This document shows positions 3,670 to 38,264 of a stretch of DNA of 64,000 bases, one piece after another. The number at the start of each line of letters is the position of its first letter. Position 1 is the first letter of the stretch. This DNA comes from Streptomyces sp. NBC_01335. GTDB lineage: Bacteria > Actinomycetota > Actinomycetes > Streptomycetales > Streptomycetaceae. The stretch is taken from the NCBI RefSeq assembly GCF_035953295.1, contig NZ_CP108370.1:7425001-7489000 (forward strand), read 5' to 3'. A model generated the notes under the pieces. That model was not told the DNA's origin, ran no database searches, and saw only the letters and a list, made by a program, of their open reading frames with translations. Position numbers and translations under genes: made by a program.

Positions 3670-4026
3670 ATGCCGCAGGTCACCCGTGTCGACACCGAGG
3701 GACTGCAGAGGGGCGCGGACCTGCTGGGGCCCCTCGGGGAACGCCTCCGGGTGTTCGTCCAGGGGACGATCCGTGAGCTGAACTCCACGTCCCCGGAAGG
3801 GAACGACAAGTTCGGCCGGCAGTTCGCCGGGAAGCGCGACCCGCTGGCGGCCGAGCTCGGAGAAGGGCTGGAATCCCTGAGCAGGGTGATCACCTCCATC
3901 GGGGACGGCCTGAACTCCATGGTCGCCGTATTCGACGGCGCCGAGCGGAACGCCTCCACCCTGACCTCCCGCCTGAACTCCCAGCTGAACGAGGGCGGCG
4001 GCAACGGCGGCGGAGGTCGCCGGTAG
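3670..4026 (+). CDS. Small ESX/EspC-type helical protein (possible T7SS partner of the giant protein)
   Basis: The product is 118 residues with a GAGGAG ribosome site at about 3656-3661. The sequence is mostly alpha-helical, with no signal peptide and no cysteine, and ends in a flexible glycine-rich tail (GGGNGGGGRR). Size, the central break (STSPEGNDKFGRQFAG) and context match the EspC/WXG100-like class of T7SS proteins, but there is no tryptophan and so no true WxG motif. Its TAG stop overlaps the GTG start of the giant gene by one base (TAGTG). This predicts coupled translation and, by analogy with EsxA/EsxB and PE/PPE pairs, a heterodimer with the giant's N-terminal domain. Confidence 0.6.
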   Translation: MPQVTRVDTEGLQRGADLLGPLGERLRVFVQGTIRELNSTSPEGNDKFGRQFAGKRDPLAAELGEGLESLSRVITSIGDGLNSMVAVFDGAERNASTLTSRLNSQLNEGGGNGGGGRR

Positions 4027-4370
4027 TGGCTGGGGCCCCCGAGGCGCTCCGCTGGGCGGCTTATCTCACCGGCACGGAACTGCCCGAGGCGGATCCCGCC
4101 GGGCTGCGCCGCCAGGGCGAGATCTGGGGCGATCTGGGGCGAAAGGTCCAGAGCATGGTGAGCGAGGTCAACGCCGCCAACGCCCAGGTCCAGGGGCACA
4201 TCACCGGTGATCCCGCCGAGGCGTTCACCGACTACATGCGGCAGTTGAACAGCACCCTGCCCGGGTTGGCACAGGCCGCGGAGAACATGCAGATCATGCA
4301 TGACGACTTCGCCCTGCAGGTGGAGCACGCCACCAATCTGGTGATCGCGATGCTCTCGTGGATGCTGGTG
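4026..4370 (+). other. Giant protein: N-terminal WXG100/CpnT-like export domain
   Basis: Residues 1-115 form a predicted helical hairpin. It opens with AYLTGTELPEADPAGLRR and EIWGDLG, the pattern that starts CpnT-type and other polymorphic T7SS toxins, and continues through two amphipathic helices (NAANAQVQGHITGDPAEAF; LPGLAQAAENMQIM). In related proteins this region directs export through EccC. I did not find a clear YxxxD/E signal directly after it, so the signal may be supplied by a partner such as the 118-residue protein just upstream. Confidence 0.7.
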
Positions 4371-7300
4371 GAGCTCGCGTTCCTGGCGAACTCGCTGTTC
4401 GGCCTGGCCGCCGTACCGGCGCTGATCACCGGCGTACGCGCGGTGATCATGGCGATTCTTCGGCGCCTGCTGCTCTCGACGGCGGTCGGCGCCGGGATGA
4501 TGACCGGCCTGGAGACGCTGCTCCAGGCGATCGAGATCCTGGAGGGGCACCGCAAGAAGCTGGACCCGAAGGCCATCACGGACATGGCGGTCGGCGGCGC
4601 GATCGGCGGAGCGGCCTTCGGCGCCCTGTCGGGCCTCGGCAGAGTGGTTGCGCCCCGCGCGTCGAACTCACTGATCGGCAGAACCCTGATCGGCGGCACG
4701 GCGGGCGTCGTCGGCGGCGCGGCGGCGAACGCCGCGATCGGCGGGGAGATGGACCTGGGACTGGCGTTCCTCGGCGGTGCGGCGGGAGCCGCACTGGGCA
4801 TGCCGGGCACCGGCGGCGGGACCCGGGGCAAGGACCCGGGCAGCGCCGTCCCCGACGTGGCGAACCTCGTCAAGGCCCCGGACGACTCGACGTTCACGGG
4901 GCCCGGGGGACCGAAGGGCCAGTCGGCGGTCGACCCCTTGACGGTGGCCACCAGCGGGGCCCCCGGGCCCGGAACCACGGGCGCCGGAGCCGGAGGCACG
5001 ACCGGTGCCCCTCGGAGCGGGGCGGGGGCGGATGCGGCCGCCCCCGGCCCCGCGCCCGTTCGCGCTACGACAGGCGGGAGCACGGGCGCGCCTGACGGGG
5101 CGGCGCGTACGAGCACGGGTGCGGGTGCGGGTGCGGAGGCGGACGCGATCTTCGGTACGGGCGGACGTACGGGTACGGAGGCGGGCTCGGACGCGGACGC
5201 CGACGCGGCCTTCGGTACGGGCTCGGGTACGGGCGGACGTACGGGTACGGCGTCGGGTACGGCCGAGAGCGCGGGGAGGCGAACCCCGTTCGTGACGGCG
5301 GCCGGTGACGGTATACCCGTCGGAACGTCCGGGACGCGCCCCGGCGTGGTGACGGCAGGCGGCAGCGGTGCAGGGACCGCACGGCCGGCGGGCGACGGAC
5401 TGCCGGGCTTCGACGAGGCGCCCCGCGCTTCCGCCGGACCGGAGAACGCGACCGTCGCGGGGGGCAGGGGGGCCGCGACGGGGACCCCCGACAGTACGCA
5501 GCCCACCACGGTGGTCCGGAGCCCGGAGGCCGGGCCCGCCACGGTCCGGGCGCCGGAGTCCGGACCCACCATGACCAGGGGCCCGGGAGACGCGACCGTC
5601 CCGGCGGGGCCCACGGAGACCGGGGCCACCGTGAACCGCGGCGCGGAAGCGGCAGCGGACCGCGGCCGGGAAGCGGCGCCGAACCGTGGCGCGGAAGCGA
5701 CGCCGTCCGCCGCCACTTCCGCGCGCCCCACCACCTCCGCGCACCCCGACTCCTTCGCACCCGCCACCACCTCCGCACACCCCGTCGGGGCCGACGCGGC
5801 GCCCGTCCGGTCCGTCAGCCAGGACCCCGCGGTGGCGGCGACGCGCGAGAACACGGCCGCACCGGCGGTCGCACCCGGAGCAGGCACGGCCGGCGGCGGG
5901 CGCCCCGACGCACTGGCCGTCACCGGACGGCAGGACGCCACGGCCACCGCGACGGCGCCCGACACCGCCCCGCCCCGGCAGGCAGGTGCGGCCCAGCCGG
6001 GCCCGTCCGCCGCCACGCCCAGCCGGGGCGAGCCGGCACCGGTATCCACGGGGACCTCCTCGGCCCAGCCGGGCCCGTCCGCCGCCACGCCCACCCGCGC
6101 GGGCGAGCCCGCACCCGTACCCACGGGCACCTCGGCCCAGGCGACTGCCGGCGGAGCCCCCGGCCCCGTACGCCCGGCGACCGTCGACGGCACGGGGACA
6201 CCCGACGCACGCACCGGGCTTTCCGCGTCGGCGCAGAGCACGGGCGACCGCACCGGGACGGCCGCCACTCCCTCGACCGGCACCGCACAGGGCCGCGCCG
6301 ACGTGGGTGCACGCACCCCGGTGGCCGGCGGGCCGGGGACCCCGGCCGGTGGGCGCACGCCGGACACCGTGACCGGCTCGGAGCGTCGAGGGGGCGCGCC
6401 GACCGGGACCCGTACCGAGTCACCGGCCCCCCGGGACACCACCTCCGCCGACCGTGCCCCCGAGACGGCGCGCGGCACGGCACGCGGCGACGGGGGAGCA
6501 CCGGAGAGCCGAACACCGCCCACGGGAGCGCCGGCGGGCGCGTCGCCGCGCCGGACCGAGACCGCCGTGGCCGCCGCGGACGGTGCGCCCCCGCGTACCC
6601 CCGACGACACCCCGCCCGGGCGAGCGGACGACGGAAACGCGAGCGACCGGCCCACCCACGACGAGGGCGCACGCTCCCGCGACGGCGCCCTCTCACCGAG
6701 CAGCAGGCCCGAGGCCGCCGAGCCGTCCGGGCCGACTCCCCCCGGGGCAGCGGCCGCTCCCACCGGCGCGTACGTCTTCCGGGACGAGGACCCGCTGCTC
6801 GGCACGGCCTGGCGCCGGGCGCAGGGCGAGGTGACGGACCACTACCGCTTCCGGTTCGAGGTCGAGGAGATGGCCGAGCGGCGGGTGGCGGAGGCCTTCG
6901 CCGCGTACCTGGACGACCCGAACCCCGTGCACCGCCTTCCCGAGCGGGTGCTCCCGGACGAGGAACCGACCGAGGGCCTCGGGACGCCGCGGACCCCCTC
7001 GGCGCTGCCCCGCGTGGAGCGGACCTCCGAGGGCGGCCCCTTCGCACTGGCCGATCCCACCGGTGCGCGGTTCCGTCTGGTGCAGTCCGAGACCCGGGAC
7101 GCGTTCCTGGTGCTCGGAAACGACCGTGAACTTCCGCCCGCTGTACGGGCGGAGGCGGAGGGGCGGCGTCAGGAGGTCAAGAGCTGGTTCGACGCGCGCT
7201 GGGAACCCGACGCGGAGGCGTACCAGCGGGGTGACATCTCCCTGGCGGAGTTCCGCTCGCGGTTCGACGAACTGTCCGCCGGGCTGCGCGACGACTTCGA

Positions 7301-10300
7301 GATCAAGTCCGCCGCGCACCTGGCGCGGGAGTCCGCCCGGGAGACGTTCGAGGAGTTCGAGACGCGGCTGCGGGACGAGGGCATGTCGGCGCCCCCCGGC
7401 AGGCTCCGGGCCGCGCGGTATCTGACGGACCTGTCGGAGCTGCCGAGGTCCGCGGTGGCGCGCGCCCGTGAGGCGTTCGCCGAGGACGTGGTGGCGGAGG
7501 TGAACCGGCTCGCCGAGGAACAGCGGTCCACCGGCGACGGCACCCGTGCCGAGCCGCTCGACTGGCCGCGGCTGCACGACGATCTGCGCGCCGAAACACG
7601 GGACCTGGCACGGGGCCTGCGGGCCCGTCTGGAGCTGGAAGTCACCGCCGAACGCATCTTCGACCGAGCCGTCGAGGCGGCGCGGGTGGAGGAGCGTCTG
7701 ACGCGGGGCGCCGAGGACGGGATCGCCACGGTCGAGCGGATCGGCCTGTGGACGGACCGGGCCCGTACCGACTTCCGTACCGACTTCGAGACCCTCACCC
7801 GCGTACTGCCGGGCGGTGACGGCCCACCCACCCGGCGGACGCCCTTCGGGCAGTGGGTGGAGCGGCGCGAGGCCTTCGCACCGGGGATGGACGACCTGGC
7901 CGCTCGCTGGGAGGCGCGGCTGCGGGCCACGGCGACCGAGGAGTCCCAGCGCGCACAGGCCGACAGGAGGGTCGAGGCCGCCCACACCAAGTGGGTGCGG
8001 TCCACCGGACGGGAGCGGATCGAGGCCGAGACGGTGGACACCGCCGCGGTGGCCGCCGCCCACGGCGCGGAGCTGACCGCCAGGGGCGAGGAACTCCTGG
8101 CCGGCCGGGAGCGGCGGGATCTCACCCCCGACGACTGGAAGTCGTACACCTACCGGATGCGGCGGGCTCACGCCCGGCTCCTCGACGACCTGCCGACGCG
8201 CTTCGAGTACCACGTCGGCCTGGAGCGCGCTCTGCAGGGGGCGGAGGTGCGCTTCGACCGGCTGGGCGTCGACGGGGTGCACGCCGAGCGCGCCCGCGAG
8301 CAGCTGCGGCAGGACGTCACCCGCGACTTCGGCGAGCTGGCGGGCCGGGCGGAGAACGGCACCTGGAAACCGAAGCGGGTGGCGGCCGGTGAGGCCGCCT
8401 TCTTCCACCGGTATCTGCCGTCGCTGGAACAGTCGATGCCGCACCGGCTGCGGCTGGAGTACGGCCTGGAAAGGGCGCTGACCGAGGGCGGCGAGCAGTT
8501 CGCCCGGCTGACCACCCGGCGCGGTGAGCTGACCGAGCGGGCCGAGTACCGGTACGACGTCGAGGAGGCCACCCGGGACCGGCTGGGCGAAGGGTTCCGC
8601 GGGGACTGGGTGCGCCGCTACCACGACGTCTACGGCCCTGACGCGCGTGACATGGACGGCTGGCTGGCGCGCGAACGGGAGGACGGCGACACCTTCGGCA
8701 GCACGGTCCGATCCGAGTGGGACGCCCTGCGCGAGGAGATCGAGCAGGAGGACCGGCGGCGCGGGGAGGCGGTGGCAGCCGCCGAACGCGAACGCGCCGA
8801 GCAGGAGGGGAGGGAGCGGCGGCAGCAGATGGCCGCCAACTTCGACTCCCTGCTCAACAGGGAAGCCTCGCTGCGGGAGTTCGTGAGGGATGCCGGGGCG
8901 GCTCCCGGTGAGATCCGCACCGCGCGCGTGCGCACGGAGTACGAACAGGACGTGGAGGCACTCCGGTCGAGCTTCGCCCGGGAGTGGGCCGACGTCTCGC
9001 GCTCCACCCCCCGGGAGGATCTGCCCGCGGCGCGCGCCCGGTTGATCGACAAGGCGCGGCAGGAATGGAACGACCTCGCCGACGCGGCCCGCGAGGAGGA
9101 CAGCGCGTACCGGGCCTGGGAGAGCGACCCGGCCCGGGTCCTGGACCTGTCGCGGTGGGAGATCGACCGCACCCCCTTCCAGGAGACCGCGCGCCGCGGC
9201 GACCTCCCGGGCCTCCCGGACCGGAGCGCGGAGGGTGCCACGCAGCTCCAGGTCCAGGAGTTGGCGGCCCGCCCGGAGCAGGCACCGGCGGACCTGCGGG
9301 CCGCCGTCGAGAGCAGGGACCGGGCCTACACCGTTTTCGGCGAACGGCTCTTTGCCGTGCGCGGGTTGGACGGCTCCGGGGCGGACGAGCGGGTCGCGGC
9401 CGTGCGGGAGAGGTTCGCCGACGCCTGGGCACAGGACCGTGCCGCCGCGGCACCGGCCGAGCTGACGCCCGCCCGCGTCGACGCCCTCCGGGAGCTGGAC
9501 GCCGGTCTCGTCTCCGCCCGGGAGATCCTCACCGCACGGGAGGCGGCCCGCGAGGTGTTCCACCGCGAGGTCGCCACCGTGGTGCCCGGCGTTCTCGCGC
9601 GTGTCACGGGCTTCACCACCTCGGCGCCGGCGGCCGAACTGACCGCCCTGTTCCAGGACATGGTGGCCGACGGAGCGACGGCCGAGGCGCAGGAGGCCCG
9701 TACGGAAACGGTGCGGGAGTTCCGGCAGCGGTACGCCGAGGCCCACGCGGCCTGGACGGCGGACCGCGAGGCGCACGCCGCCTTCGACCGCGCGCTCCAC
9801 GCCCGAACCGCCGAGAACCCGCACGACCGATTCGCGTACCAGCAGCGACTGGGCACTCACGCGGAGCAGAACTGGTACGACCGGCAGCTCGACGCCCTGC
9901 GGCAGGGGTACGCCACCGAGCGGGCCCGGGCGCTGTCCGTCGAGGACGCCGAGGAGCGTCAGGAGCAGGTGCGGCAGCTGGACGAGAACATCCGCCGGGC
10001 CGCGGCGCACCAGCGCCGGCTGGCCCCGGAGGCCGCCGAGCGGACGCGCCGGTTCGCCGAACACACCGACCGGTTCCGCGCCGACCGCACCTGGGGCGAG
10101 GAGGTGCGCGGCTGGTACGAGCAGCAGCGCCTGACCCTCCAGGCACCGGTGGTCGAACGGCTCGGCCGGTACGGTCCCGAGGCACACGAAGCCGCCGTGG
10201 CGAGGTACGACGCGCAGGTCCAGGCACTGCGGGAGGTGGCACAGGCCCGGCACCGCGGCGAACTCGACCGCGTCGCGCTGCTCGCGGACGAGCCCCCTGG

Positions 10301-34300: not shown

Positions 34301-37300
34301 CCGCCCGGAACTCGAACTCTCCGACGACTCCGTGGTCCTCGCGCTGCTCGCCGGCGGCGGCGTGGCCATCCCGGAGCTGACCCCCGTCCCGGTCTCCTCC
34401 GCGCCGCAGACACGGGTACGGGCCCCGGGGGGCAACCTCGTACGGGCCCGGTTGCAGGCTCTGGGCTCGGTGGTGGACGAGAGCTGGAGCCGGCACGAGG
34501 CCGCGATCCAGAACGCCTTCAGCTCGGAGCGGCTGGCGGCGAACCTCGCCCTGATGAGCCGGGGCGTGCTGCGCGGGCCTTCCTTCGACAGCAGCGCGGC
34601 CCACGACAGGGCCCGCATCGTCTCGTCGGCACGGGTGCGGAGCCTGGCCTACCTGAAGGTCGTCCCGGGCTCCGAGCTGAACGTCGTCAACGAGGTCGGT
34701 TCCTCCTCCGCGGTGCGCAGCGGCTTCTCCACCCTGAACCAGGGCCAGGCCGCCGGAGGCGCGTCCTTCGGCTTCACGGCCGGCACGTCGTGGCAGCCGA
34801 CGGCGGGCTGGGGGCGGGGGAAGCGCGAGCGCGAGTTCTTCCGTACGGCGCAATCGGCCAAGGAACTCGCCAACAGCAAGTTCAAGGAGGAGATGGCCCT
34901 CTACGCGGGCGAGGCGGTGTTCCGCTTCGGGGTGATCGGCGGCCAGGGGCGGCAGACGCGCGGTACGGCCACGAACGAGGGCGACGACGTCGTCGTGCCG
35001 TTCTTCGTGGCGATCCCGACCCGGCTGACCCGGCCCCACACGGTGGAGCGGGCCGGAGCGCAGATCTTCCGTGCGCAGGCCGCCGCGCCCGCCGAGGCGT
35101 CCGGACCCGCCGAGGCGTCCGGACCCGCTGAGGCGTCCGGACCCGCTGAGGTTGCCGTACCGGCGGGGGAGTCCGCGCTGATTCCCGTACCTGCGGCGGA
35201 GTCCGCGCAGGTGCCCGTACCCACGACGGATCCCGGCCCCCCGCCGTCCGTGCGTGACCGGTCCGTGCTGCCCGTGGACACGCAGATCCTCTCCCTGGGA
35301 AACAAGGGACAGAACGTCTCCACGAGGGTGTTCCGCTCGCTCCGCGTCCGGTTGGGGGAGAGGGAGCTGGCCGAGGAGGAGGCGGCGTACGAGATGCTGC
35401 TCAGCCCCGGCTTCCTGCGGCCCCGGCTCGCCTCCCTCTCCTCCGCCTCGGCACGCAATCTGCGTACGCCCGAGCCCCGGAACCCGATTCCCGTGCACAC
35501 CGTCACCGGCCGCCACTCACGGGTCGTTTTCACGAGCGTCGGGGCCCACGATTTCGCCTTCGAGCGGACCGTGAAGTCGTTCGAGGCGGAGACGGGGACG
35601 GAGGAGAGCGCTGTCACCGGACACGCCGAAGACCGGATGCAGCGCACCACGCGCATCCTCGACAGCGTGGTGACCGCGCCGTACACCACCATCCAGAACA
35701 CCGTCACAGCCAACCAGGACACCAGTCGCAGCACGGTCACCGATGCGGGCACGACCCTCGGGAGGAAGACCAAGGCCACCGAGTCCTACGGGGTGTTCAA
35801 CGGCACCGTGCGGCTGCGGGGACGCGTCGAGTACCGGCGCGGGGACACCTGGGCCGCCCCGGCCGACCCGTTCACGGTGGACGTGCCCGTCCGCGCCGCC
35901 TTCCCCACCGCCCACCTGGTGCGGCCCGGCGGCAGCCCGGTGCTGAACACCGGAGGAGGAACCCGGCGGCCGTCGCGGAGCACGCTGTTCAGCCGTCGGC
36001 TCCGGGAGAGCGACGTCACCGGCCGGGTCCAGGTGCTGTTGCCCGACGACGCTCCCGGTGGCCCGCTGGGCGACCTGGAGGCCCACGGCGTCGCGCTCTT
36101 CGGCCGCGAACAGTGGGCCAGGAGCAGCCAGGTGCTGGCCCACAAGGTGCGGTCCACCGACCTGACCGCCGCCGCCCGGGGCGCCTTCGACGGCCAGCCC
36201 GTCGTCCTCACCTTCCCCGGCGGCCACGCGGAGGTGACGTTGATGCTGCGCGGCACGACGGTGCCGGAACACGACCGGCAGGTCGACACCGTCGAGTTCA
36301 ACATCGGCAACTCCCGCGAGCACAACGAGGACAGCGTCGACGGTGACAACACGCAGTCCCGCGCCACCTCCACCTCCCAGCGCATGAGCGTGACCGGCAG
36401 GGCCGAAGCGGTGCCCGGCGTCGCACCGTTGGGCACCCTCGCCCACCAATGGACCAAGGCCCAGGAGAACTCCGAGTCCCGGCTGACCAACGTCGGCGCC
36501 GGGGGCGGGACCAAGAGTAAGACCGAGGGGTCCGTCTTCCGCGACGAGGTCGACCTCCTCCTCACGGTGCACCGCGACTTCGCCGGTTCCCGGGCCAGGT
36601 TCGCCGCGATGAAGCTGTTCGTCGCGGACAACTGGCAGGCCCGTGCCATGCGGAAGAGGGTCGAGCGCCAGCAGGAACTGCTCGCTGCCCTGACGGCCGT
36701 CGCCGCGGAGGAACAGCAAGCGGTACCGGGCCGTGCGGAAGACGCCCGTGCGGAAGACGCCCGGGACGCCCGTACGGAAGCCGGCCCCGCTCCTGCGGAC
36801 GTGGGCGCGGACGTCGCCGGGCCGGTCCCGGGCGCTGCCGGGCCCGGGAGGGTCACGGCGGCGGCCACCCCGGCCGCCGCCAGGACGAAGCCCGCACCGA
36901 CCGACGTCGAGAAGTGGGCGATCCAGCGGGCCGGCCAGTTCAGGGCCACGCTGCCGGCCCGGATGACCCACACCTCCCCCACCCGCACGACCGGGATCGT
37001 CGGACCCGCAGCGGCTTCCGTATCCGCGCAGCAGACGGAGCAGAACCCCCCGCCCCGGCGGATCACGGCACCGATGCTCCATGGGACCACGGTCCAGATG
37101 CGCTCACTGTCGTCCATGGAGAGCGTCCGCAGCCTCGTCGCCGGCCGGGGCGCGGAGCTCTACGGCTCCTGGAACTCCCGTCACGGCGCCTCCTCACGGA
37201 CCCACGGCCAGTACGTGGTGGACAGGCTCAGCCGGCCCGCGCTGATGGCGTGGCTCAGCGACCGGCTGACCAACCCGGAGCGCACGGACGCGCTCGTCGT

Positions 37301-38264
37301 CCGGGTGGGGGGCGTGCCGGGCGGGGCCATCACCGTCCGCGTCGACACCCACTTCAAGGACGCGCTGACGTACGCCGGACTCGACAAGGAGGCGGAGACG
37401 GTCACCACGTCGATCACGGGCAACCGCATCGACCTCTCGGGGAGCACCTCCTCGGCGCACGCGGGAATGGCGGAGTTCGGCGCCGAGTTCGGGTACAGGC
37501 CGGCGCTCGCCCGGGTATCCGCGCGCGCCGGAGGAGGGTCCCGCACACGCGGCACCGACCGCAGCAGGGAAGCCGGACGCACCATCCTCAACAGCAAGAC
37601 CCCGGTGCCCCACGTGCTCTACGAGGGGCATGTGCTGCTGCAGTTCACCTTTCTGCGCGACAACAGCCCCCTGGAGAGAAGCAGTTACGGAGCCATCCCC
37701 TTCGAGCTGGCCGTGCCGCGTGACGAACTCCGTGCTCTGCCGGCCATCACGGAGGAGGAGACGCGCCCTCAGGAGCGGCAGCCGTCCCCGGAAGACCGAG
37801 GCGGCCAGGAGCACGCCGGCCGGGAGCACGCCGACCGGGAGCAAGCCGGCCGGGAGCAACCCCTGCCGGAGAAGCCGGGCGACATACCGCTCGACGACCT
37901 CGCGGGACGGTCCCGGCACGACGGCGCGGTGCCGCGCACGCAGGAGGCTCAGCCCCAGCCCGAGCCGCCCCCGACGCCGCCGCCCGCGCCCTCTGCACCC
38001 CCTGCGTCCCCTCCCGCTCCGACCCCTGCCCCGGCTCCCCTGCCGGACCGGGGGCCGACGGTCACCAGTGGCTCTCCGCCGCCTCCGCCCGGGGCCCGGC
38101 CCCGCCGCTCGTCCCTCCCGACCACCGGGACCCGGGACCGCGGCCACCTCCGACCGCGGCCCTCGCTGAGCGGGCTGCACCGCTTCGGGCAGGGCGACAG
38201 GGACAAGGGCAGGGACAGGGACAGGGACAGAGGGGCGGACGGAAGCACGGAAAAAGGGAAGTGA
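4026..38264 (+). CDS. Giant 11,412-residue T7SS-associated modular protein
   Basis: This is one uninterrupted 34,239-bp frame from GTG 4026 to TGA 38262-38264, about 1.2 MDa by length. In order: WXG100/CpnT-like domain (residues 1-115); hydrophobic and glycine-zipper stretch (104-261); Thr/Ala/Pro/Gly-rich disordered region (262-915); charged helical block (916-2771); mixed linkers with five copies of a 75-residue element; alpha-solenoid (about 3755-4960); beta-rich repeated modules (about 5700-11245); basic Pro/Arg-rich tail. The N-terminal sequence (LTGTELPEADPAGLRRQGEIW) resembles the LTGxxWPEAD opening of CpnT-type toxins. I saw no cysteine in the whole translation and very few lysines. 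Giant Streptomyces proteins are, as I recall, named 'lonely Cys domain-containing' in databases; I could not verify membership. Adjacent EccC/D/B suggest T7SS export. Function (effector, adhesin or pore) is unknown. Confidence 0.9.
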   Translation: MAGAPEALRWAAYLTGTELPEADPAGLRRQGEIWGDLGRKVQSMVSEVNAANAQVQGHITGDPAEAFTDYMRQLNSTLPGLAQAAENMQIMHDDFALQVEHATNLVIAMLSWMLVELAFLANSLFGLAAVPALITGVRAVIMAILRRLLLSTAVGAGMMTGLETLLQAIEILEGHRKKLDPKAITDMAVGGAIGGAAFGALSGLGRVVAPRASNSLIGRTLIGGTAGVVGGAAANAAIGGEMDLGLAFLGGAAGAALGMPGTGGGTRGKDPGSAVPDVANLVKAPDDSTFTGPGGPKGQSAVDPLTVATSGAPGPGTTGAGAGGTTGAPRSGAGADAAAPGPAPVRATTGGSTGAPDGAARTSTGAGAGAEADAIFGTGGRTGTEAGSDADADAAFGTGSGTGGRTGTASGTAESAGRRTPFVTAAGDGIPVGTSGTRPGVVTAGGSGAGTARPAGDGLPGFDEAPRASAGPENATVAGGRGAATGTPDSTQPTTVVRSPEAGPATVRAPESGPTMTRGPGDATVPAGPTETGATVNRGAEAAADRGREAAPNRGAEATPSAATSARPTTSAHPDSFAPATTSAHPVGADAAPVRSVSQDPAVAATRENTAAPAVAPGAGTAGGGRPDALAVTGRQDATATATAPDTAPPRQAGAAQPGPSAATPSRGEPAPVSTGTSSAQPGPSAATPTRAGEPAPVPTGTSAQATAGGAPGPVRPATVDGTGTPDARTGLSASAQSTGDRTGTAATPSTGTAQGRADVGARTPVAGGPGTPAGGRTPDTVTGSERRGGAPTGTRTESPAPRDTTSADRAPETARGTARGDGGAPESRTPPTGAPAGASPRRTETAVAAADGAPPRTPDDTPPGRADDGNASDRPTHDEGARSRDGALSPSSRPEAAEPSGPTPPGAAAAPTGAYVFRDEDPLLGTAWRRAQGEVTDHYRFRFEVEEMAERRVAEAFAAYLDDPNPVHRLPERVLPDEEPTEGLGTPRTPSALPRVERTSEGGPFALADPTGARFRLVQSETRDAFLVLGNDRELPPAVRAEAEGRRQEVKSWFDARWEPDAEAYQRGDISLAEFRSRFDELSAGLRDDFEIKSAAHLARESARETFEEFETRLRDEGMSAPPGRLRAARYLTDLSELPRSAVARAREAFAEDVVAEVNRLAEEQRSTGDGTRAEPLDWPRLHDDLRAETRDLARGLRARLELEVTAERIFDRAVEAARVEERLTRGAEDGIATVERIGLWTDRARTDFRTDFETLTRVLPGGDGPPTRRTPFGQWVERREAFAPGMDDLAARWEARLRATATEESQRAQADRRVEAAHTKWVRSTGRERIEAETVDTAAVAAAHGAELTARGEELLAGRERRDLTPDDWKSYTYRMRRAHARLLDDLPTRFEYHVGLERALQGAEVRFDRLGVDGVHAERAREQLRQDVTRDFGELAGRAENGTWKPKRVAAGEAAFFHRYLPSLEQSMPHRLRLEYGLERALTEGGEQFARLTTRRGELTERAEYRYDVEEATRDRLGEGFRGDWVRRYHDVYGPDARDMDGWLAREREDGDTFGSTVRSEWDALREEIEQEDRRRGEAVAAAERERAEQEGRERRQQMAANFDSLLNREASLREFVRDAGAAPGEIRTARVRTEYEQDVEALRSSFAREWADVSRSTPREDLPAARARLIDKARQEWNDLADAAREEDSAYRAWESDPARVLDLSRWEIDRTPFQETARRGDLPGLPDRSAEGATQLQVQELAARPEQAPADLRAAVESRDRAYTVFGERLFAVRGLDGSGADERVAAVRERFADAWAQDRAAAAPAELTPARVDALRELDAGLVSAREILTAREAAREVFHREVATVVPGVLARVTGFTTSAPAAELTALFQDMVADGATAEAQEARTETVREFRQRYAEAHAAWTADREAHAAFDRALHARTAENPHDRFAYQQRLGTHAEQNWYDRQLDALRQGYATERARALSVEDAEERQEQVRQLDENIRRAAAHQRRLAPEAAERTRRFAEHTDRFRADRTWGEEVRGWYEQQRLTLQAPVVERLGRYGPEAHEAAVARYDAQVQALREVAQARHRGELDRVALLADEPPGTVRMENAETVRWARTHVEHLREEYVRTVETARVAASAAGLVAPPAYADADDWRAPAWQDAQRTLHQRYAEILARPDTADADADAETGDGAAAGTRVESGPGTPVGDVIDDGTFDEAFRVWAGDKASVLTEEQLTAVREQVRTEHARLSAITSDTGAAVRTVQDAFTVAAVRQRGLAHAEAAFERTFHTWWQETLAASSRGLTDGTGASFEPAGETAGAVHDRLAAEFHDRVDRLVDRSFTGIDPERALDGTVRQAVRDLRDMIAPLPNEFDRRLHLLLLDPAFEAAVASFPGHRGAGSGALTAAEHTPVSAHEHLLSAFAAEGTPVSGPGRARVLDDARRALDDVFDRFERPGAGTDDRAASIDRQTRLDAVVGGLHLRLAEQAVREHQIVRVQEAVQAAAASWAETGPRTDAAFLDRFPVDFGSPGKELVAELGVTMAVVVNQRLDQVLAETERLGPQERAERWQDAYRRLTDPERLHTWLTVRHARDRIGELAEELLAAHLTQWRDAHGDRPLGEADTARVRAGLEERLRSAFDVLHPRHTFVLDDVDALGRRWDAVLAAEAQALPAHLAFESTVGTALHGAARSFEALRGDRETEDDRFAALGGDFRRDFLDAYETLWAPQKLSSAWATHEAAHADSFTTGLTAARLHALDPEGSRDARRTADEMESRLRRTYDEPDFQELWDRANELLGPRLLIGRDPETVALREAQHRALFRLMGHLGREGDERRARDLARALVERIPGIGSLRPGVRGGAGPRAEERAEERGPGRGRPGPGVPETAMGDPYPDWPDLVMDEAGAYRPDPATAEEGPHPLNLPSDDVLLDLPDPLWFPPEHVGGAFDGAGTWSTVGLDASGAWLGGFTDPGLTDLSLLTDLSFLTDPQLAPDPDLDFQPHLDLLLDLGPLPDLSSLPDHAPGMVQEPTGQQEPVQESTGEMQRRLRSRFGPLFQDLWEQATGLLRPVVELGPEAGAFALRQAQMRALGLIVEVLGGNTDDPRGDARTLADTLATQTPGMRSEDPRDVWSHRARHAEPSQSQPELGPQPQPQPEPQPAQPGAVVPEPLGDTWEQRVWRARPWRTEPTARQDGGPHAGVPLTEAQQTRLFTMLNTRERVLDEILTFGAVADWASRSVRVPLDEAEVERLHREYIGSWPEPPVRRGVLGLSAPLTVAAWEHFRVSGHLEVGGGHRTVFRGKTVRLGRYVRDTLRRKDTFARLSQARVDWWESVGMRWPTDAMLDAVRVYLDGRTLTAPPPDEEIRAVRVPGWQATVDLVHWRETLRHLLVLKDEARIREALGEAWAEAFFAGRPPHTVEETALGVTAPGEPSVHLTRPATPPPASMEDLFGPSPEPTPEFEPVRPATPPPASTEDLFGPSPEPTPEPAPEPARLTPGGPGAPIDVDAFEPPGAEGLQAWRARPWRSQASPQPFARPAWRTYPTPTQREELFHHLRKAGRNATFGTVADWMHRTFRLRLDEEQLERLQWEHRLAQAERAASRPGRSRRAPRISAPGPVPDTSQEAGPSTAGAGRSGTGEHLGPERDWDPAPSSAFAPGVGGDLVDRLRAASDTETLKSRWARAMVLLRPAVLIGTEPETVALREAQRHAGLRIMEVLGRSDGPPWTRALVEKDAEELANELAAATPGIRSGQPTLRAGAPHEAADSAARTAPDAQILADAARQAVRAVSRGGERSAVPADALVAFLNRAAARTWHEDWPAGDLARMAAADATWVAPGHAELVDALMHPAHLHVVKAIVRRPELGTILQARPQHLDVLSGSGELLRRLSALDSMTLAAYALGPSHLDAKLAPSADGKRELVEAIENRSPDAAHLLDAVEVATVLNGRTAHILAVSSSETVADLVALLPGLASAVLAGTPESARSFAREEVLTSAVFARVEADAEIDVAALYADRELRARLQTHADQTDLLLRAPDLLAAVARDPGLLDVLGRDARLIDVLADAPDFANRLGADARLVTAAVDNPAVAGLLSRDPAHFDAVPAPALLDALRQAAPVARAEQGDPAARSLKPPAADPVPLRDLRAALPALDAALTVDPLLALELRADAGLRRALLLHPDLLTDPHEYRRLLGPDAETLRPLVRENSPLLAPYVLKAALRHPVLRFWLGHSPSLLEAGPGDPRIAFTDAAEADPLVGWMAWVNPAVGLLLDHQSPGSPDFGNLRAYWELGPADERIFTHYALEGFHDLLYVEDRQRLLDVLFRSDALLRLARYDRRVLDAVDTEAVAGLHAHPRVLTELASRPGFQLPVAHWRALFHSPGLLRGLDGDSGLLSLLASAPEVFREAVARPALVDVLGTEPFRAGVTAVVEARRAENAKKSKKKTKAWTNTLANLVTSHGGDAVLSPEGVRLHADDARWSGLWHLAPETARAELGRMADGPGSEERLAALHAVDDLVRGNGTLLDAARGSRAAGAMLFQDPDLAEMLVARPRLLATVHDPNASVLVLLRDNPALTAALRTNDSLYAYTLLRGTVSQLAGNPDLVRQLVAVPDLVRFMLQRPHEHAIAAGDPHLRQLMGERNDVARALADDGRVAELLLSTPSLAAELITFHTGRDEDTAVVRAVLSGVPAARSVAATPAFAQVLRRYPAVSESIAAHPEAFTDTAHFRRFLSDEEPLRALQRHPDHIGRVLASAELLETTLRAPAVVDALAADPGLARLLERRPQGESLHQLLRTQPEVTRALAVVEGGLGHTLVTALGAVRGLTDAMAADPRIGRDLRDAPWLAGTLLRSHGLVEHAVDESPLWRAARASRPLADALAPSLVRRLAPRETLLQRLAEHPSALTGTDPHELRRLLTDADLTRFLDDTPRFADRFFATAALRDRALQSPGTAGDLRQLARNRAAFDRLAEDLTGRRLLAALPRVAAPAPAPVSDTASARLQETARPGVGTAARRGRKNGRGAARVAVTVREPATEQPSVWAQALASVPEAAGLLLAPKGADLAAELGRNPELLPLMLGAPAVLEDLTLNPADWQDYVFAPYLASGEAALTALDTDFSAWLDRLGAVVEGDFHQRVRDTAQGAWDREVASRAARVARERERVAERLAAFQPHRPETWDQRAGRLLHTRQARAEALTPAQLALLEEVAEGHRSPREVQNRQRPVAVHQALHIHLDGGSGGASFAYVLAEDGHVDTLVYAISRSRQNNDYTWDGYGGHSTAGPMDIGAIRNEPALRASVERVERATAQAAENRDDQVKATGRKGKGKERGPAAAAVARPDTETYARAVDPDLMRLAEALTAYHSAVADHAAAPQARDKKAPARETALTAARRRLRALGLDPEARTGPDDEAVPEQGGTGRFAADGARGLGARLGITTRAAEALLTAAGGLLRAPVLIGTDPETEAARRGHHEHLIDVAEVLHTRGAEAARTRALELGGPQTRGKLPGAGAQQSRPMEVEMEVLGSEAGPSNQAGPSDQAGPDVQPVTDREAEELEQLLLEPRPRRRGEPMASLDRVLAGRETGVDATQDDQRIPMGRRAGTEDQADPAPEPEQQTAPEEQQAVPVQQAEEQQAEVVEHPEPAPERQAEVAEHPEPEPERQRPDDAEQQAAPEPEPAHVPEAPAAEALAPETPAPAPETLEPATAHVTDVAAPVTGAAGPALDAPAPISDSVRAYGAEFDGVQGTVSLGRVPESTVDWLRDRLSRQLEGSLGEDENLRDQIRVRLTPSYLVNEWSEVRGENGLVLHLRHRGTVRTVRVRLRLGDPRPAPELLDGLAEGVPNRVQRWGAGYSDTGNTAGTADLRTFQLAGSHVWQPSLGVLSQIAIQPQVTLVHNQLSTQVSVVSAAQALSLVTVSGGAVPYAYRMRWQLRVDTGAAPADWTTDQEGPAGERMAVWFPEHLTRTDPPGATDTAVPDTAADGSDQAAAARAAAEREHAPLRTAVHEVPLYGVETVLNPERVLHAAEQAFADHLGAMSGASREDLQRFFGSRSMRDALPRMLNGWHASPLLLAADGSALGFIRVRADLADDGRQTGPTAPAADLQHQVVRTVRVVGQSTVTNAVGADLRLTVGFSAPHGDAVTAPIGGALTVNAGARQQVSYVLGSGGDLTRSLTLQSGGPMFQVEGRVTFEMQLVLPKGGVALPSTTSPLHAGADGEGRTAYPVVFRVPSRAVLEGVVEAVPRSLPPEMVRLRSLGISTTTLRVDGAEPLYDMAGRWLREHGFLPSGTSGRWTGVATRARWLANARALDHARSAQTLRGAADELVEGGHTIWLEVPGTGDVQRVQVRLTAERIDDAPVTAARSLPGLQTNNWSGYNRPGQEGRKVTPMGWSLTGMGEVSNPLEFHGQLPLQGVRPEYTASGSNAEATATTSLVGQEKYLSTAAGDGLQLFEIPVRLRLDLLWSHGPAPRPLVAEGTLAVAVPTYRTVSAPPRAESASDAPVAVVQEPVAPEPSIRSDEAAHGSEDARSGHPGAEDSESETSDTESVDSVITDEPHIAVRVTEEELTRLAGDGAPEVLRRLPESAFVDRVLGSDTLVQVVSRLLGAPRTETEDEDLFDLTALHRQEETADEDAEAVAAPSAERTGDLVAETAATPPAEATAGHVPETAVAPPAATETAAAPPVKTPAEIWASAGAGGPLGWAQRLADGAWRWTTRTTVGGSLADQDSMAQQVLRSALSFHQLTANALTVFGDGLVLEGAGSFGLVSGTDVSVEITGYLSGVRRQEAPGPMSMESWLYASDTVTSTRSVGGGGQTGVTVSGAYTPGVSLFPSGRYVDTSATTVSTTHSDNASDARVTAHSSTRMQRFTADATYRVTVGQGRRNVVSGTLAARPHTVRTVGFLVPDAVEFLLPESDLAKHPELAALAEFTPPAQDRTLMLPQWYRDTGQLGQGAVIGVALEGPRGQFRQNLLDTIEKAAPGATRPGDAGYLPGLASWVSDHSSSVGLRVPIGAGPRGTGSMHFVHRGWLGLGPRLVTVEVNARPRPGTDLDQIRGSGVDDTAQLTHSAAHGGGRNAGLAEPGVQTQSVSYNRARQLEARPVLQSGGQRLQTTLTGALERAIGTSATSQRETRAWQRSGELAEFQVPYRYRVTVRSSPMSGAADGPVAGLVAATLGGFGTREFHATADATATLWFDRDDLPTEADRAVPLVRPAVFERDPADRTAPPPGALVIGLDGLTDDVRDALDGQDWMPDRPFALYSFDAGVELARALREVDPALSGPDRMHTSFSDESLMIRLSRLVRPGDGDAGRRLDSVAVGRLMGRTGAHPATSVRLRLLPQQILATGDTALDDVRTSGDAYTTTATTTVTPSVASLYTARVTSDDTNRVLVSAPFAQNAGAQGQSGGGNNYRRDYLKYGLPARAGKPGPTTGHLIRALAVLHVTGPKENRWVLGTMVLRAMDTPPLRTIPAATGTPAATKTQAATETPAATDGKAPGSTAASAEQRGKGKAAERSADHPERVQDTEPGTEPDTAERPTTERGTTEPGTTEPDAAELDTEDVRRLAERLGVPDDTVRALAGSAWRHLAAPLEIGREPEVQARLEARRAAVARIVETLYAQGPEAARDLADRLAADNPGLRAVGVKLRGGARSGPTTGTTDENGAGGSGSTSNPQQAVDPHPAPPVAQPLDTVWRPPSPEPESPLGTVVREPRPPRPLPDLAGVFAEDGAWTEAGGGDGREAGPVFAPPEYAGRQGAGRERYAFADDRLQNAVRDGVLGLLPRVARAETEPLLDTYLAAVDPGSVLREAVAGGHTAVLRPPGGPLAVTVRLRLADWTQLTGPRGEPVGDAGIHALPDDGPRQTARQVRAWGESTSAGRTVDHALNVSLPQPITQALSSVSSLSGIISGTQSVFGGYAKKTAYSASTTRSSTRTVRPASDPGEVRFLHDVEVGLEVRRTGQDDPQRARTVLERALVGTYPRGAVRALPRPAGTDHATSALRTELSGEPRTSTAHLFQAAVPDGTDTVFRTSGPATVGPAVAFPALSWVDSVTGAEAYRAAVFAAAGPSPADPFSPSFEALNDFAGVHTLLSGLLDATAGGLHSARLESADGRSDAVRVDATFHNPRAVADTTEPSRIDVEDVHSAAAGAASVQGDAASAGTGFLLPLVRSALGVPALVPLPKATYKRSVQYTRPGQQADHLEVRRLRHTDEPTTVVEYDVRVETGSLNGRPGTHTWITARVRMLTADAARLGQLPPAADAHLPAPSADPETLARTAPGRVLTLPPSTDGWLPPTSRIAEIDPRGAGEALTRALDLVRDRFPAYLAPRAPWQNARDAQDAQDAQGVLEAQGPQGANAGPPPDVATGRRPLHRTQPHHIANHLALAEALSPAALAGRAHPLTGPGHTLVLTSPVPGRPGAEQRLLVTVRASLEQADFTYARTRRGQTEVVQGASFHLLTSALRNWKVAAGLGIKVGGTSEDSAATEPSGRLTPGVSWSGSVDETGGFSAAGAFGGGSLWLAEFDGPVVLHLSATPVPAAGEAAAVPVEAAPVTARATLVTPEDLALERDEAGRSRPTLDFESRTDGSGAVTRVPRTAEPAPRRSWTPAVGERLPRDTLHLVRTDHLFPEAATLLREIGVPPLDPADEAALRTALTGLAPRVRDLGGAPRPVWSRPVPAGTLRTVGRVEVSVRATTAGLTAVGESTHAFHYDHSLATAEVRDTETRDRMAWDATAEGSLTGTQRAGTDLPDSDDATRLGLGYGRSAPVSTGRTVSGRGDRTHTTVDDHVWAQAPTDFVVTVRRWEELRVSFGDYGSRRYGEREVTGRPVRSPGLALLPSRSARTLGLVERRDGSPDRAPDPAGATAPAPANVLRGDGFDHAVLLDAPDLGPFVDQVMPRLRDLGLLSREHAEAVESELWKVAGRQGTAALLETMLTGLPILVPDRNAYSTSMARLVLTAELLDPRAAGREPGEHVLESANGRAWENSRAESTETSHQGHAALAATSDQYDLIASGATNRLKPTVTRSDSLRTRTSDQRDTAVVTVLHPHVTAFDVRLTAELEVHRAVATAPTPLGGLMPLIGREERHVLGVRVFPGALRLGHPEQVTRHDPVPAPRPATAHEPADVERPRPEPLLSAEALREAFVGTVADLPGLRRAAESLFTGRDLWTSPSRAPHSWQGGLFLVRSKIAAVFSPPYMNQWFLTLAAGGTLDEPVTLPRTANTDLPARLRISADVRGLRVVPSGPDGALPDTVAKDPTRSVLLPAGRSGTDAVRLGGPLSGDSSASAVRPRTDAATIRLTGPDRRIGRSYARVEADSVTWHLVLRPTTGDPRAVRATVTDRAAVFYVPTESLSELPARTDATPAARADGPGTSDADHSQDAPATGEGRRAGTGQGRRAGKGKATESEQGESGQADSARADSEPADAARGPVAETLTPDQVSRAAQEFTGAMLALDRAREALAALEEREAHTSAGRSDDTVRATEAARREVEAAGRRAAAADRVMGLVDSVEPATFPMPTEAELRANPRALGAGPLDRFRRWLDGAASARQDDTTGVTPRTEAQEPAPDRAEATGPHFLEPLPEWAAAPDDESAALTETRPAESRPAEVANTVAEAPALPAPPARLTGGILGAGDVVHRLGAGPQDFTLRMADALAEPLGTDNADLARDQIAEHLQTEHLGSWLFGLSNGETRNLTIDTPGWQGRIPLRATLRNARTTGTVAKFEFEPGVESGTGTAVGYDANRGWNAGVAARGTFPFVRLDLGATYARESGQGTIYQDMSRMTARGKTVSKALAVTVDVRFELDLSHLVRGDGTAPPEPLTRKTVTLPATLSTPYADSPSVPPAGTARSVPSYMSRMRAPGPFDLLVDSYPVNADGARRDGGLNAILRQPLPRVSDRSPRDAAVEVFGSARDADEVLAALEQLVPFTALHQQLRTLMWAGPLIVDLPDGLGRVELEAELGAARFAHHTENGTEFNVGTSTGQSVLTSSAHSRSTNLAGTLQGNQLGDTTSWILPGMAEPSGLKALVGANRTAAKEANTLQEESATTGATVKAKVPSSVFDTTVVLTARFRNADGRTAEGRAPMGARFIVRTSDTDEAADGSGTWASSWIERGTAPAEPRSFVLPVFRAGDVVHRPELELSDDSVVLALLAGGGVAIPELTPVPVSSAPQTRVRAPGGNLVRARLQALGSVVDESWSRHEAAIQNAFSSERLAANLALMSRGVLRGPSFDSSAAHDRARIVSSARVRSLAYLKVVPGSELNVVNEVGSSSAVRSGFSTLNQGQAAGGASFGFTAGTSWQPTAGWGRGKREREFFRTAQSAKELANSKFKEEMALYAGEAVFRFGVIGGQGRQTRGTATNEGDDVVVPFFVAIPTRLTRPHTVERAGAQIFRAQAAAPAEASGPAEASGPAEASGPAEVAVPAGESALIPVPAAESAQVPVPTTDPGPPPSVRDRSVLPVDTQILSLGNKGQNVSTRVFRSLRVRLGERELAEEEAAYEMLLSPGFLRPRLASLSSASARNLRTPEPRNPIPVHTVTGRHSRVVFTSVGAHDFAFERTVKSFEAETGTEESAVTGHAEDRMQRTTRILDSVVTAPYTTIQNTVTANQDTSRSTVTDAGTTLGRKTKATESYGVFNGTVRLRGRVEYRRGDTWAAPADPFTVDVPVRAAFPTAHLVRPGGSPVLNTGGGTRRPSRSTLFSRRLRESDVTGRVQVLLPDDAPGGPLGDLEAHGVALFGREQWARSSQVLAHKVRSTDLTAAARGAFDGQPVVLTFPGGHAEVTLMLRGTTVPEHDRQVDTVEFNIGNSREHNEDSVDGDNTQSRATSTSQRMSVTGRAEAVPGVAPLGTLAHQWTKAQENSESRLTNVGAGGGTKSKTEGSVFRDEVDLLLTVHRDFAGSRARFAAMKLFVADNWQARAMRKRVERQQELLAALTAVAAEEQQAVPGRAEDARAEDARDARTEAGPAPADVGADVAGPVPGAAGPGRVTAAATPAAARTKPAPTDVEKWAIQRAGQFRATLPARMTHTSPTRTTGIVGPAAASVSAQQTEQNPPPRRITAPMLHGTTVQMRSLSSMESVRSLVAGRGAELYGSWNSRHGASSRTHGQYVVDRLSRPALMAWLSDRLTNPERTDALVVRVGGVPGGAITVRVDTHFKDALTYAGLDKEAETVTTSITGNRIDLSGSTSSAHAGMAEFGAEFGYRPALARVSARAGGGSRTRGTDRSREAGRTILNSKTPVPHVLYEGHVLLQFTFLRDNSPLERSSYGAIPFELAVPRDELRALPAITEEETRPQERQPSPEDRGGQEHAGREHADREQAGREQPLPEKPGDIPLDDLAGRSRHDGAVPRTQEAQPQPEPPPTPPPAPSAPPASPPAPTPAPAPLPDRGPTVTSGSPPPPPGARPRRSSLPTTGTRDRGHLRPRPSLSGLHRFGQGDRDKGRDRDRDRGADGSTEKGK
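4335..4808 (+). other. Giant protein: hydrophobic and glycine-zipper segment
   Basis: Residues 104-261 contain at least two membrane-compatible hydrophobic stretches (LVIAMLSWMLVELAFLANSL; LITGVRAVIMAIL). GxxxG-type runs follow (AVGGAIGGAAFGALSG; GGTAGVVGGAAANAAIGG; FLGGAAGAALG). Such zippers insert into membranes in several bacterial toxins. Here the segment could anchor the protein or help a later part cross a membrane; this is inference. Confidence 0.65.
4809..6770 (+). other. Giant protein: disordered Thr/Ala/Pro/Gly-rich region
   Basis: Residues 262-915 are low-complexity with almost no hydrophobic core. Short units recur, such as TGTGGRTGTE/TGSGTGGRTGTA near 5150-5250 and AQPGPSAATPxRxGEPAPV at about 5990-6120. 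This gives a flexible spacer of roughly 650 residues between the export domain and the first folded block. Confidence 0.75.
6771..12338 (+). other. Giant protein: long charged alpha-helical block
   Basis: Residues 916-2771 are dominated by Glu/Arg/Ala helices. A loose pattern recurs, with an aromatic, charged heptads and then aromatic plus Trp, as in FRSRFDELSAGLRDDFE, RFEYHVGLERALQGAEVRF and RLRLEYGLERALTEGGEQF. Spectrin-like or coiled-coil bundles are likely. Pairs such as VGLERALQGAEVRFDRL and YGLERALTEGGEQFARL indicate internal duplication. I recognise no enzyme motif. Confidence 0.6.
12339..12566 (+). repeat. Giant protein: LIGxDPET element, copy 1
   Basis: Residues 2772-2847. The core reads LWDRANELLGPRLLIGRDPE, then TVALREAQHRAL, an LGREG turn and RDLARALVERIPGIGSL. 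This copy is the type pattern: helix, L(L/V)xPxLIGxDPET, helix ALREAQxxAL, helix ARxLAxxLAxxxPGIRS. It sits directly after the charged helical block. Confidence 0.85.
13140..13358 (+). repeat. Giant protein: LIGxDPET element, copy 2
   Basis: Residues 3039-3111. The sequence reads DLWEQATGLLRPVVELGPEA, FALRQAQMRALGLIVEVLGG and LADTLATQTPGMRS, matching copy 1 across its length. The LIGxDPET core is changed to ELGPEAGA. An acidic stretch with LTDLSxLTD repeats (about 12898-13050) precedes it. Confidence 0.8.
14286..14435 (+). repeat. Giant protein: 69-bp tandem duplication (RPATPPPAS..EDLFGPSPEPTPE)
   Basis: Two copies at 14286-14354 and 14367-14435, period 81 bp, differ at one base by eye (ATG/ACG, Met/Thr). 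They encode a Pro-rich unit ending EDLFGPSPEPTPE. The near identity at DNA level indicates a recent duplication in a linker. Around it lie two diverged copies of a WRARPWR...FG(A/T)VADW...LDExxxERL segment at about 13500-13750 and 14520-14760. Confidence 0.85.
15000..15248 (+). repeat. Giant protein: LIGxDPET element, copy 3
   Basis: Residues 3659-3741. The sequence has RWARAMVLLRPAVLIGTEPE, TVALREAQRHAGLRIMEVLG and ELANELAAATPGIRSGQP. It is the copy closest to copy 1, sharing LIGxxPETVALREAQ. It lies just before the alpha-solenoid. Confidence 0.85.
15288..18905 (+). other. Giant protein: alpha-solenoid of DPxLLxxL-type helical repeats
   Basis: Residues about 3755-4960 consist of short repeated helices ending in (D/N/H)P or DA followed by a Leu-rich helix. 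At about 16040-16260, APDLLAAVARDPGLLDVLGR, DARLIDVLADAP and NPAVAGLLSRDP follow one another. The same phrasing returns in RHPVLRFWL, HPRVLTELASRP, DPDLAEMLVARPRLLATV and DPGLARLLERRP. This resembles ARM/HEAT-like superhelices, usually protein-binding scaffolds. A lysine cluster (AKKSKKKTK, about 17269-17295) interrupts an otherwise lysine-poor region. Confidence 0.65.
20241..20471 (+). repeat. Giant protein: LIGxDPET element, copy 4
   Basis: Residues 5406-5482. The sequence has ALLTAAGGLLRAPVLIGTDP, ETEAARRGHHEHLIDVAEVL, then AARTRALELGGPQTRG. The LIGTDPET core is exact while the last helix is diverged. A Glu/Gln/Pro-rich linker follows at about 20472-21116, with a duplicated QAEV(V/A)EHPEPxPERQ unit. 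Confidence 0.8.
26622..26870 (+). repeat. Giant protein: LIGxDPET element, copy 5
   Basis: Residues 7533-7615. The sequence has ALAGSAWRHLAAPLEIGREP, then RRAAVARIVETLYAQGPEAA and RDLADRLAADNPGLRAV. It is the most diverged copy (EIGREPEV for LIGxDPET) but keeps the helix lengths and the closing PGLR. It sits between two of the beta-rich blocks and is flanked by Thr/Glu- and Pro-rich linkers. Confidence 0.75.
35085..35160 (+). repeat. Giant protein: 18-bp tandem repeat (PAEASG units)
   Basis: Three 18-bp units encoding PAEASG run head to tail, followed by a partial fourth (PAEV). They lie in a linker between beta-rich blocks. Other short in-frame tandem repeats are GTTEP near 26545-26580, DAQ near 28911-28940 and the GACAGG-type run encoding DRDRDR near 38205-38235. 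Confidence 0.85.
37761..38264 (+). other. Giant protein: basic, Pro/Arg-rich C-terminal tail
   Basis: Residues about 11246-11412. A Glu/Arg repeat region (GREHADREQAGREQP) is followed by polyproline (about 37965-38100). The end is strongly basic and unstructured, with arginine-rich segments, a GQGDRDKGRDRDRDRG run and STEKGK at the terminus. There is no sortase motif, no membrane anchor and no known toxin fold, so no catalytic C-terminal toxin domain is visible. Confidence 0.7.

Follow-up and report, generated by a model that had tools for sequence, protein, structure and literature searches.

The window, a 64,000-nucleotide stretch of the genome of Streptomyces sp. NBC_01335, encodes a protein of 11,412 residues that is headed by a WXG100-like domain, contains no cysteine and lies in line with genes of a type VII secretion system (T7SS). 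Sequence comparison leads us to think, with moderate confidence, that this protein leaves the cell through that system and serves as the body of a giant modular effector. That the protein is a T7SS substrate best explains its head, the order of the genes and the constant presence of EccD near giants of this kind.

An intact frame of 11,412 codons

The giant is encoded on the forward strand by one frame (4026..38264), which opens with GTG and has no internal stop, giving a predicted mass of 1.21 MDa. The G+C content by codon position is 0.76/0.57/0.91, and third-position values stay at 0.87-0.94 throughout (23 blocks of 500 codons), so that the frame conceals no frame change. Given the frame's own position-specific base composition, a run of 11,412 codons would escape stops with a probability of about 10^-52. 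The single intact frame reported in the initial annotation is thus confirmed by the lack of internal stops and by coding composition in every block. Lysine makes up 0.9% of the protein. The start codon overlaps the stop of a 118-aa upstream gene (TAGTG), and a GTG start is found at the aligned place in the relative from Streptomyces griseoviridis JCM 4250 (G133), whose giant has 12,373 codons.

Opposite the giant lies a stop-free frame of 3,019 codons (6693-15752, minus strand), which is a chance effect of G+C content and shows that in DNA of this kind the length of a frame by itself proves little. Very long wrong-strand chance frames of this kind in G+C-rich DNA lend some colour to the idea that the giant itself is an artefact of assembly or gene prediction, an idea already contradicted by the codon-position composition of every 500-codon block and by the many other genomes that hold giants with the same head, so that we give it next to no probability.

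The conserved head and its upstream neighbors

The head of the giant (aa 1-221; 4026..4688, forward strand) comprises a WXG100_2 domain, a hydrophobic segment (aa 102-158) and a Gly/Ala-rich stretch, as delimited by PF25547, hydropathy and an alignment of the heads of 14 proteins. PF25547 matches aa 17-130 with 34.6 bits against the Pfam cut-off of 27, bearing out the WXG100-like head that had been proposed from the sequence. The heads of the window giant and of G133 are 84% identical in residues and 58.5% identical at four-fold sites, the lower value at four-fold sites being a sign of purifying selection on the head; the giant blocks outside the head are too diverged from G133 for such a reading.

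Upstream of the giant, a small YbaB/EbfC-like protein (3109..3582, forward strand, start codon uncertain; PF02575, E 1.7e-12) is encoded by the first gene of a triad made up of YbaB, partner and giant, with tblastn relatives at nine of the 12 giant loci compared. The second gene (3670..4026, forward strand) encodes a 118-aa protein described as EspC/WXG100-like and helical, having no match in Pfam or NCBIfam and hence none to a WXG100 family. It is 46% identical between the window and G133, and at a tblastn E of 1e-3 similarity was found only in G133 and G104 among the 12 giant loci. In upstream regions aligned for six other loci chosen from these 12, a gene of like size lies directly upstream of the giant at five and about 0.9 kb upstream at the sixth (G023). 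The YbaB-like gene, the small gene and the giant recur as a group across giant loci, with the 118-aa protein being a candidate partner of the giant's head.

Related giants and their linkage to EccD

Queried with aa 1-277 of the giant, the 150 genomes surveyed from the genus gave the head at 33 places in 25 genomes, among them the own genome, and 20 of the 119 genomes surveyed from the order matched, with the own genome and G133 counted again. Frames of at least 2,900 codons were present at 13 of the places in the genus survey and at 13 further places in the order survey. The initial annotation had named the presence of giants beside T7SS genes as a check on its proposal, and the outcome is strongly positive. 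Of these 26 frames, 22 (10/13 in the genus, 12/13 in the order) have EccD (PF19053) no more than 50 kb away on their contig, against a chance expectation of about 5% calculated from the four loci of EccD, two of them with a giant, in the 8.36 Mb genome that holds the window. The exceptions are G200:C46 and three frames on contigs of 19.8, 16.0 and 12.4 kb (G112, G084 and G077, respectively). EccD accompanies 16 of the 20 shorter head-bearing frames of the genus survey at a distance of no more than 30 kb on their contig, the remainder being two frames on G063:C138, one on G001:C93 and G000:C1:4968145. The last of these (674 codons) is a clear exception, with the nearest EccD about 950 kb away, and weighs against the reading of T7SS export. 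In a local comparison with the window genes, EccC, EccD or EccB was found at nine of 12 giant loci, while of the other three G084 has AAA and WXG genes, G112 only YbaB and the head and G077 only the head. The T7SS link of the giant is thus supported by these gene neighborhoods.

The relatives vary widely in length, with 10,805 codons in G104 and 18,347 in G023, and with frames of 14,051 (G249), 9,927 (G171) and 8,738 codons (G229) in the order survey. A protein collection, searched over lengths of about 5,500-17,500 only, held six proteins with the head (5,638-7,300 residues), including ones from Allokutzneria and Actinosynnema. A second giant in the own genome (G000:C1:3491620-3506679; 5,019 codons, one cysteine) adjoins another EccB/C/D set with a mycosin-like gene.

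Secretion genes downstream of the giant

The next gene after the giant encodes a B-lectin-like protein with a hydrophobic N-terminal segment (38392..39189, forward strand as are all genes in this section, with an uncertain start that could be 38269), matching PF01453 with 31.5 bits, just below the cut-off of 32.4. In the general Pfam search by which this neighbor was classed as lectin-like, no immunity gene was identified beside the giant. There follow EccC as a fusion of EccCa and EccCb (39609..43598; TIGR03924, TIGR03925), EccD (43654..45051; PF19053, PF08817) and EccB (45061..46452; PF05108), such that three components of a canonical T7SSa or ESX system are present at the locus. Identity to G133 is 89% for EccC and 73% for EccD and EccB. 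The position of the giant between small ESX-type genes and EccC/EccD/EccB, as given in the initial annotation, holds.

After EccB comes a 926-aa protein (46454..49234), linked to the T7SS and without a Pfam or NCBIfam match, with tblastn relatives in six of the 12 giant loci, three of them strong. G133 has two more-diverged further copies of this protein near its giant. Three lectin-like genes of the type that adjoins the window giant lie around the S. griseoviridis giant (G133:C23 32106, 84008 and 93489), two of them adjoining the 926-aa copies. The following gene encodes a beta-helix and an AAA ATPase (49239..52586; PF13229, PF00004, PF17866), which we take to be EccA-like. Two genes of WXG100 size come next, the first (52740-53084) matching TIGR03930 with 32.4 bits, below the cut-off, and PF06013 with 26.7 bits, just below the cut-off, and the second (53186-53476) recognized by length and position only. 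Beyond these, a 184-aa protein and a Gly/Pro-rich WXG-headed protein of about 1,060 aa (together 53479..57435; PF06013 19.0 bits, below the cut-off) are possible further substrates.

The Ecc set had been called complete, of which EccC, EccD and EccB are confirmed by profiles while those for mycosin and EccE find nothing in the window. Mycosin is a protease required for ESX systems. The mycosin profile gave 26 matches in the genome and none in the window, and the EccE profile a single genome match at 5.90 Mb and again none in the window. A single mycosin query taken from the paralogue locus in the own genome (G000b) matched its own locus and three of 12 others (G133b, G053 and G143), with no match in the window, G133, G104 and G023 (stretches of 64-110 kb), in the short contigs of G112, G084 and G077, or in G023b and G054. 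A diverged mycosin may escape a single query, and the comparison took in the G133 contig only from 20 kb onward, which makes this result weaker for the relatives than that of the profile search for the own genome. The window T7SS seems to belong to a branch distinct from the mycosin-bearing locus of the paralogue.

A mosaic body

The modules of the body are defined by sequence, with folds that are mostly predicted, and all lie on the forward strand. A charged, helical-looking region (aa ~920-2750; 6783..12275) is partly common to P0001, G133, G023 and G229. It is followed by the first of five copies of a junction domain of about 80 residues, detected with a purpose-built profile (copy 1, aa 2757-2839, 12294..12542, iE 1.2e-34; copy 2, aa 3026-3108, 13101..13349; copy 3, aa 3644-3733, 14955..15224; copy 4, aa 5399-5475, 20220..20450; copy 5, aa 7526-7605, 26601..26840). 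These copies stand beside module borders, with one copy each in G133, P0001 and P0002 and a weaker one in G249; in Pfam, copy 1 has only a sub-threshold match to T6SS_VasJ (E 0.085). Between copies 3 and 4 lies a helical repeat region (aa ~3780-4945; 15363..18860), recognized by repeat self-matches and predicted to be an alpha solenoid in an AlphaFold model that has mostly pLDDT 60-89 and is confident only over aa ~4365-4785. It is followed by a conserved domain (aa ~5010-5335; 19053..20030) with a nearly invariant HxHLDGGSGGAS stretch in the alignment of window, G133 and P0002, for which Pfam gives nothing beyond a sub-threshold match (E 0.36).

The remainder of the body consists largely of three arrays that read as beta-rich. 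Array 1 (aa 5700-7430; 21123..26315), beta-rich as judged from its sequence, is common to G133 (aa 10645-12288) and G229. Array 2 (aa 7701-9314; 27126..31967), for which helices and strands are modeled at low confidence, has 47-60% identity with segments of P0001, P0002 and G133 that are positioned elsewhere in those proteins. Array 3 (aa 9589-11260; 32790..37805) was resolved by iterative profile search into repeats of about 190 residues, with five copies at E <1e-3 and a weak sixth (aa 10684-10855, E 0.026), and the own-genome paralogue and P0004 have six copies each of this repeat, which is absent at E 1e-3 from the other giants compared. Arrays 1 and 2 (1,731 and 1,614 residues) are long enough for six like units and by eye have a similar rhythm, with a weak, putative kinship to this repeat. 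The protein ends in a Pro-rich and then charged C-terminal tail (37806..38261).

Beside the head, six large blocks of the window giant match G133 at 32-60% in altered order, such that window aa 5700-7430 precedes 7701-9314 while the G133 counterparts are 10645-12288 and 4585-6154, respectively. P0001 and P0002 share aa 7701-9314 (57% and 47%, respectively) plus other blocks, with the helical block being present twice in P0002. The own-genome paralogue has the head and array 3 in common with the window giant, and for G104, G112, G084 and G023b the head alone is common at the comparison threshold. For the pairs compared, the sequences show bodies evolving by module swapping behind a conserved head, and the 84% head with reordered modules corresponds to the conserved N-terminal head and exchanged body of polymorphic toxins.

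Enzyme and toxin domains in the giant and its relatives

Beyond the head, the window giant has no match over cut-off in Pfam or NCBIfam when searched whole, or in Pfam when searched in pieces, which bears out the lack of a recognized enzyme or toxin domain stated in the initial annotation. The C-terminal toxin domain of polymorphic toxins was likewise not found among recognized families, the giant ending in a low-complexity tail with no Pfam or NCBIfam match.

Some relatives do carry such domains. The G023 giant (G023:C1:2167952-2222995) has two Scabin-like matches together with Gln_amidase and Gln_deamidase_2, its other pieces giving no enzyme domain match, and P0001 and P0002 match PF22596 (Scabin-like). 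By their source names P0003 is a RelA/SpoT-type protein and P0007 an NAD-arginine ADP-ribosyltransferase, while P0004 matches PF07517 and PF01043, which we take to be SecA-type domains. A metallopeptidase-like HExxH followed by Gly and Asp occurs in several relatives, for which the only profile backing is a sub-threshold match to TIGR03296 in G023b. The G023b giant (G023:C1:2631532-2658576) has 9,014 codons, no cysteine and five HExxH motifs with G and D in near-repeated copies. By eye, OTU-like and caspase-like motifs may also be present in relatives, outside any profile match. In P0003 (7,300 aa) repeated regions look OTU-like, the last with an altered SGDC, beside the RelA/SpoT-named domain and an HExxH motif.

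Depletion of cysteine

The 11,412 residues of the window giant include no cysteine, a feature that the initial annotation does not mention, against about 86 expected from a rate of 0.75% (288 of 38,315 residues) in 81 neighboring frames of the relatives' loci, which were mechanically called and give a rough rate. At this rate the Poisson chance of finding none is about 10^-37. Several other proteins of the locus contain cysteine in varying number (EccD 8, EccB 3, AAA protein 12, 926-aa protein 4, lectin-like protein 1), with only two in the 1,329 residues of EccC. None is present in the 118-aa, YbaB-like, 184-aa, ~1,060-aa and first WXG100-size proteins, with one in the second WXG100-size protein. 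The cargo-like proteins are thus the poorest in cysteine but the line is not sharp, since the low content of EccC and of the YbaB-like protein means that low cysteine is not unique to cargo.

Depletion extends to the relatives, with no cysteine in the G104 giant and one in that of G133. It is weaker in the G023 giant (17 in 18,347 codons), and G249 and G229 have 17 and 12, respectively, some of which precede the likely start. In total 15 giants have 39 cysteines in 122,863 residues, with P0001 (6 in 6,639) left out because half of these six fall within a tail that is apparently out of frame. In the G023 giant, 14 cysteines lie between residues 7,939 and 16,423 at a spacing of about 320-870 residues. 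Read by eye, many of the remaining cysteines of the giants appear to belong to enzyme motifs (DGDC, SGDC, or a hydrophobic strand followed by AC or TC).

Proposed export as a modular effector and alternative readings

WXG100 proteins are known to work as pairs. By analogy and from gene order, the head of the giant would pair with the 118-aa protein encoded upstream and be recognized by EccC, with the long chain then passing the membrane unfolded, a route that the lack of cysteine over its full length would fit. That the depletion runs from end to end of the 11,412 residues suggests passage of the entire chain, rather than of the head only, out of the cytoplasm. Outside, the body may fold into a helical rod, an alpha solenoid and three beta-rich arrays with junction domains between. 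The Scabin-like ADP-ribosyltransferase and glutamine deamidase domains found in some relatives that share the head or modules suggest a role in effector delivery, the best reading of the shared parts being that of delivery and scaffold modules, probably serving attachment or delivery. The window copy would then deliver an activity of an unrecognized kind or act by its scaffold alone. Classical T7SS substrates are of about 10 kDa. We know of no precedent for a chain of 1.2 MDa as a T7SS substrate, which weighs against export. Also on the opposing side are the giant's lack of a recognized catalytic domain, the failure to identify an immunity gene, the missing mycosin and EccE matches at the locus, and a cysteine content that is low in EccC and the YbaB-like protein too and less depleted in some of the giants.

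The giant could instead be an envelope scaffold or adhesin and not a released effector, held in the membrane by the hydrophobic part of its head, with the 11,000-residue body as a hyphal stalk or coat. The hydrophobic segment directly after the WXG100 domain, the long repeat arrays, the lectin-like product of the next gene and the giant's lack of a recognized enzyme domain are all in keeping with a scaffold, but toxin-type enzyme domains occur in some of the relatives that have this head or these modules, and the bodies are shuffled like those of polymorphic toxins, leaving this reading unlikely. We give still less weight to the giant being an unarmed relic, kept or decaying after the loss of its enzyme cassettes. 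Such a loss would explain both the absence of Pfam and NCBIfam matches beyond the head and the low-complexity C-terminus, and P0001 and P0002, which share array 2, do have a Scabin-like domain and an HExxH motif; against it stand 34 kb without a stop or frame change, purifying selection on the head and the G133 giant, which is also Pro-rich at its end yet open throughout.

It is very improbable that the giant belongs to the secretion apparatus, for instance as the outer channel or conduit in a T7SS whose locus lacks mycosin. Its place in line ahead of eccC, the lack of an EccE or mycosin match at the locus and arrays of about six units that could be ring-like would suit a conduit, but EccC is 89% identical to G133 while the body blocks are reshuffled at 32-60%, and in G104 and G023 the giant is at the end of the cluster far from EccC. 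Returning to export as a modular effector, a bolder and rather doubtful extension is that a T7SS branch without mycosin and EccE threads cysteine-free chains of at least 1 MDa, with each six-unit beta array closing outside into a single-chain pseudo-hexameric ring, such that the giant would be a self-assembling delivery device of three rings with room between junction domains for interchangeable toxin cargo.

If the giant is exported, then a T7SS handles proteins some two orders of magnitude larger than its classical substrates, a point of consequence for the working of the channel and for whether substrates pass folded. The giant family is also a natural experiment in assembling giant effectors from interchangeable parts and offers a T7SS locus without mycosin.

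Relation to known systems

A giant headed by PF25547 is presumably comparable to the CpnT-like WXG100-headed polymorphic toxins of T7SS, with which it shares a WXG100-like head followed by a hydrophobic segment and, possibly, a small WXG-like upstream gene. It differs from these in its several-fold longer body, in its mosaic of arrays and in that no C-terminal toxin domain was found. The locus resembles ESX/T7SSa loci in having EccC, EccD, EccB, an AAA protein that we take to be EccA-like and genes of WXG100 size, and is unlike them in the 926-aa protein after EccB and in giving no match for mycosin or EccE. RTX and other giant type I secreted proteins are also very long. The giant is like these in being a very long, cysteine-poor chain, while theirs use another secretion system with a C-terminal signal, and no sequence relation is claimed. 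Type I (T1SS) substrates are described as having few or no cysteines (PMC10225607), hence the analogy with a cysteine-poor giant.

Actinobacterial giant multi-toxin proteins of more than 10,000 residues, such as SACTE_5178 with 13,652 aa, and T7SS-delivered OTU toxins with WXG heads are described in Zhang et al. (2012; PMC3482391). In view of these proteins and of the several toxin-type domains in some relatives, the undescribed system proposed in the initial annotation was too strong a claim. The window giant is like them in coming from Streptomyces, in being modular and in exceeding 10,000 residues, with the head-sharing G023 relative having Scabin-like and glutamine-deamidase-type matches; unlike them it has no cysteine and no recognized toxin domain, so that of the description of several toxin domains in a chain of this size it has the length but not the domains. 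The likeness to SACTE_5178 is by description. Loci lacking mycosin, cysteine content and these repeats were not found in the passages of Zhang et al. (2012) that were covered, and no later literature on such giants in Streptomyces T7SS was recognized in a search covering few subscription journals, with PMC12419801 concerning other giants. Within that coverage, the mosaic built of junction domains of ~80 residues and of ~190-residue repeats that come about six to a set, the near lack of cysteine in the giants and a T7SS locus that has neither mycosin nor EccE are apparently new. At 18,347 codons, the frame of G023 exceeds even the largest toxin that Zhang et al. (2012) name, with 13,652 residues.
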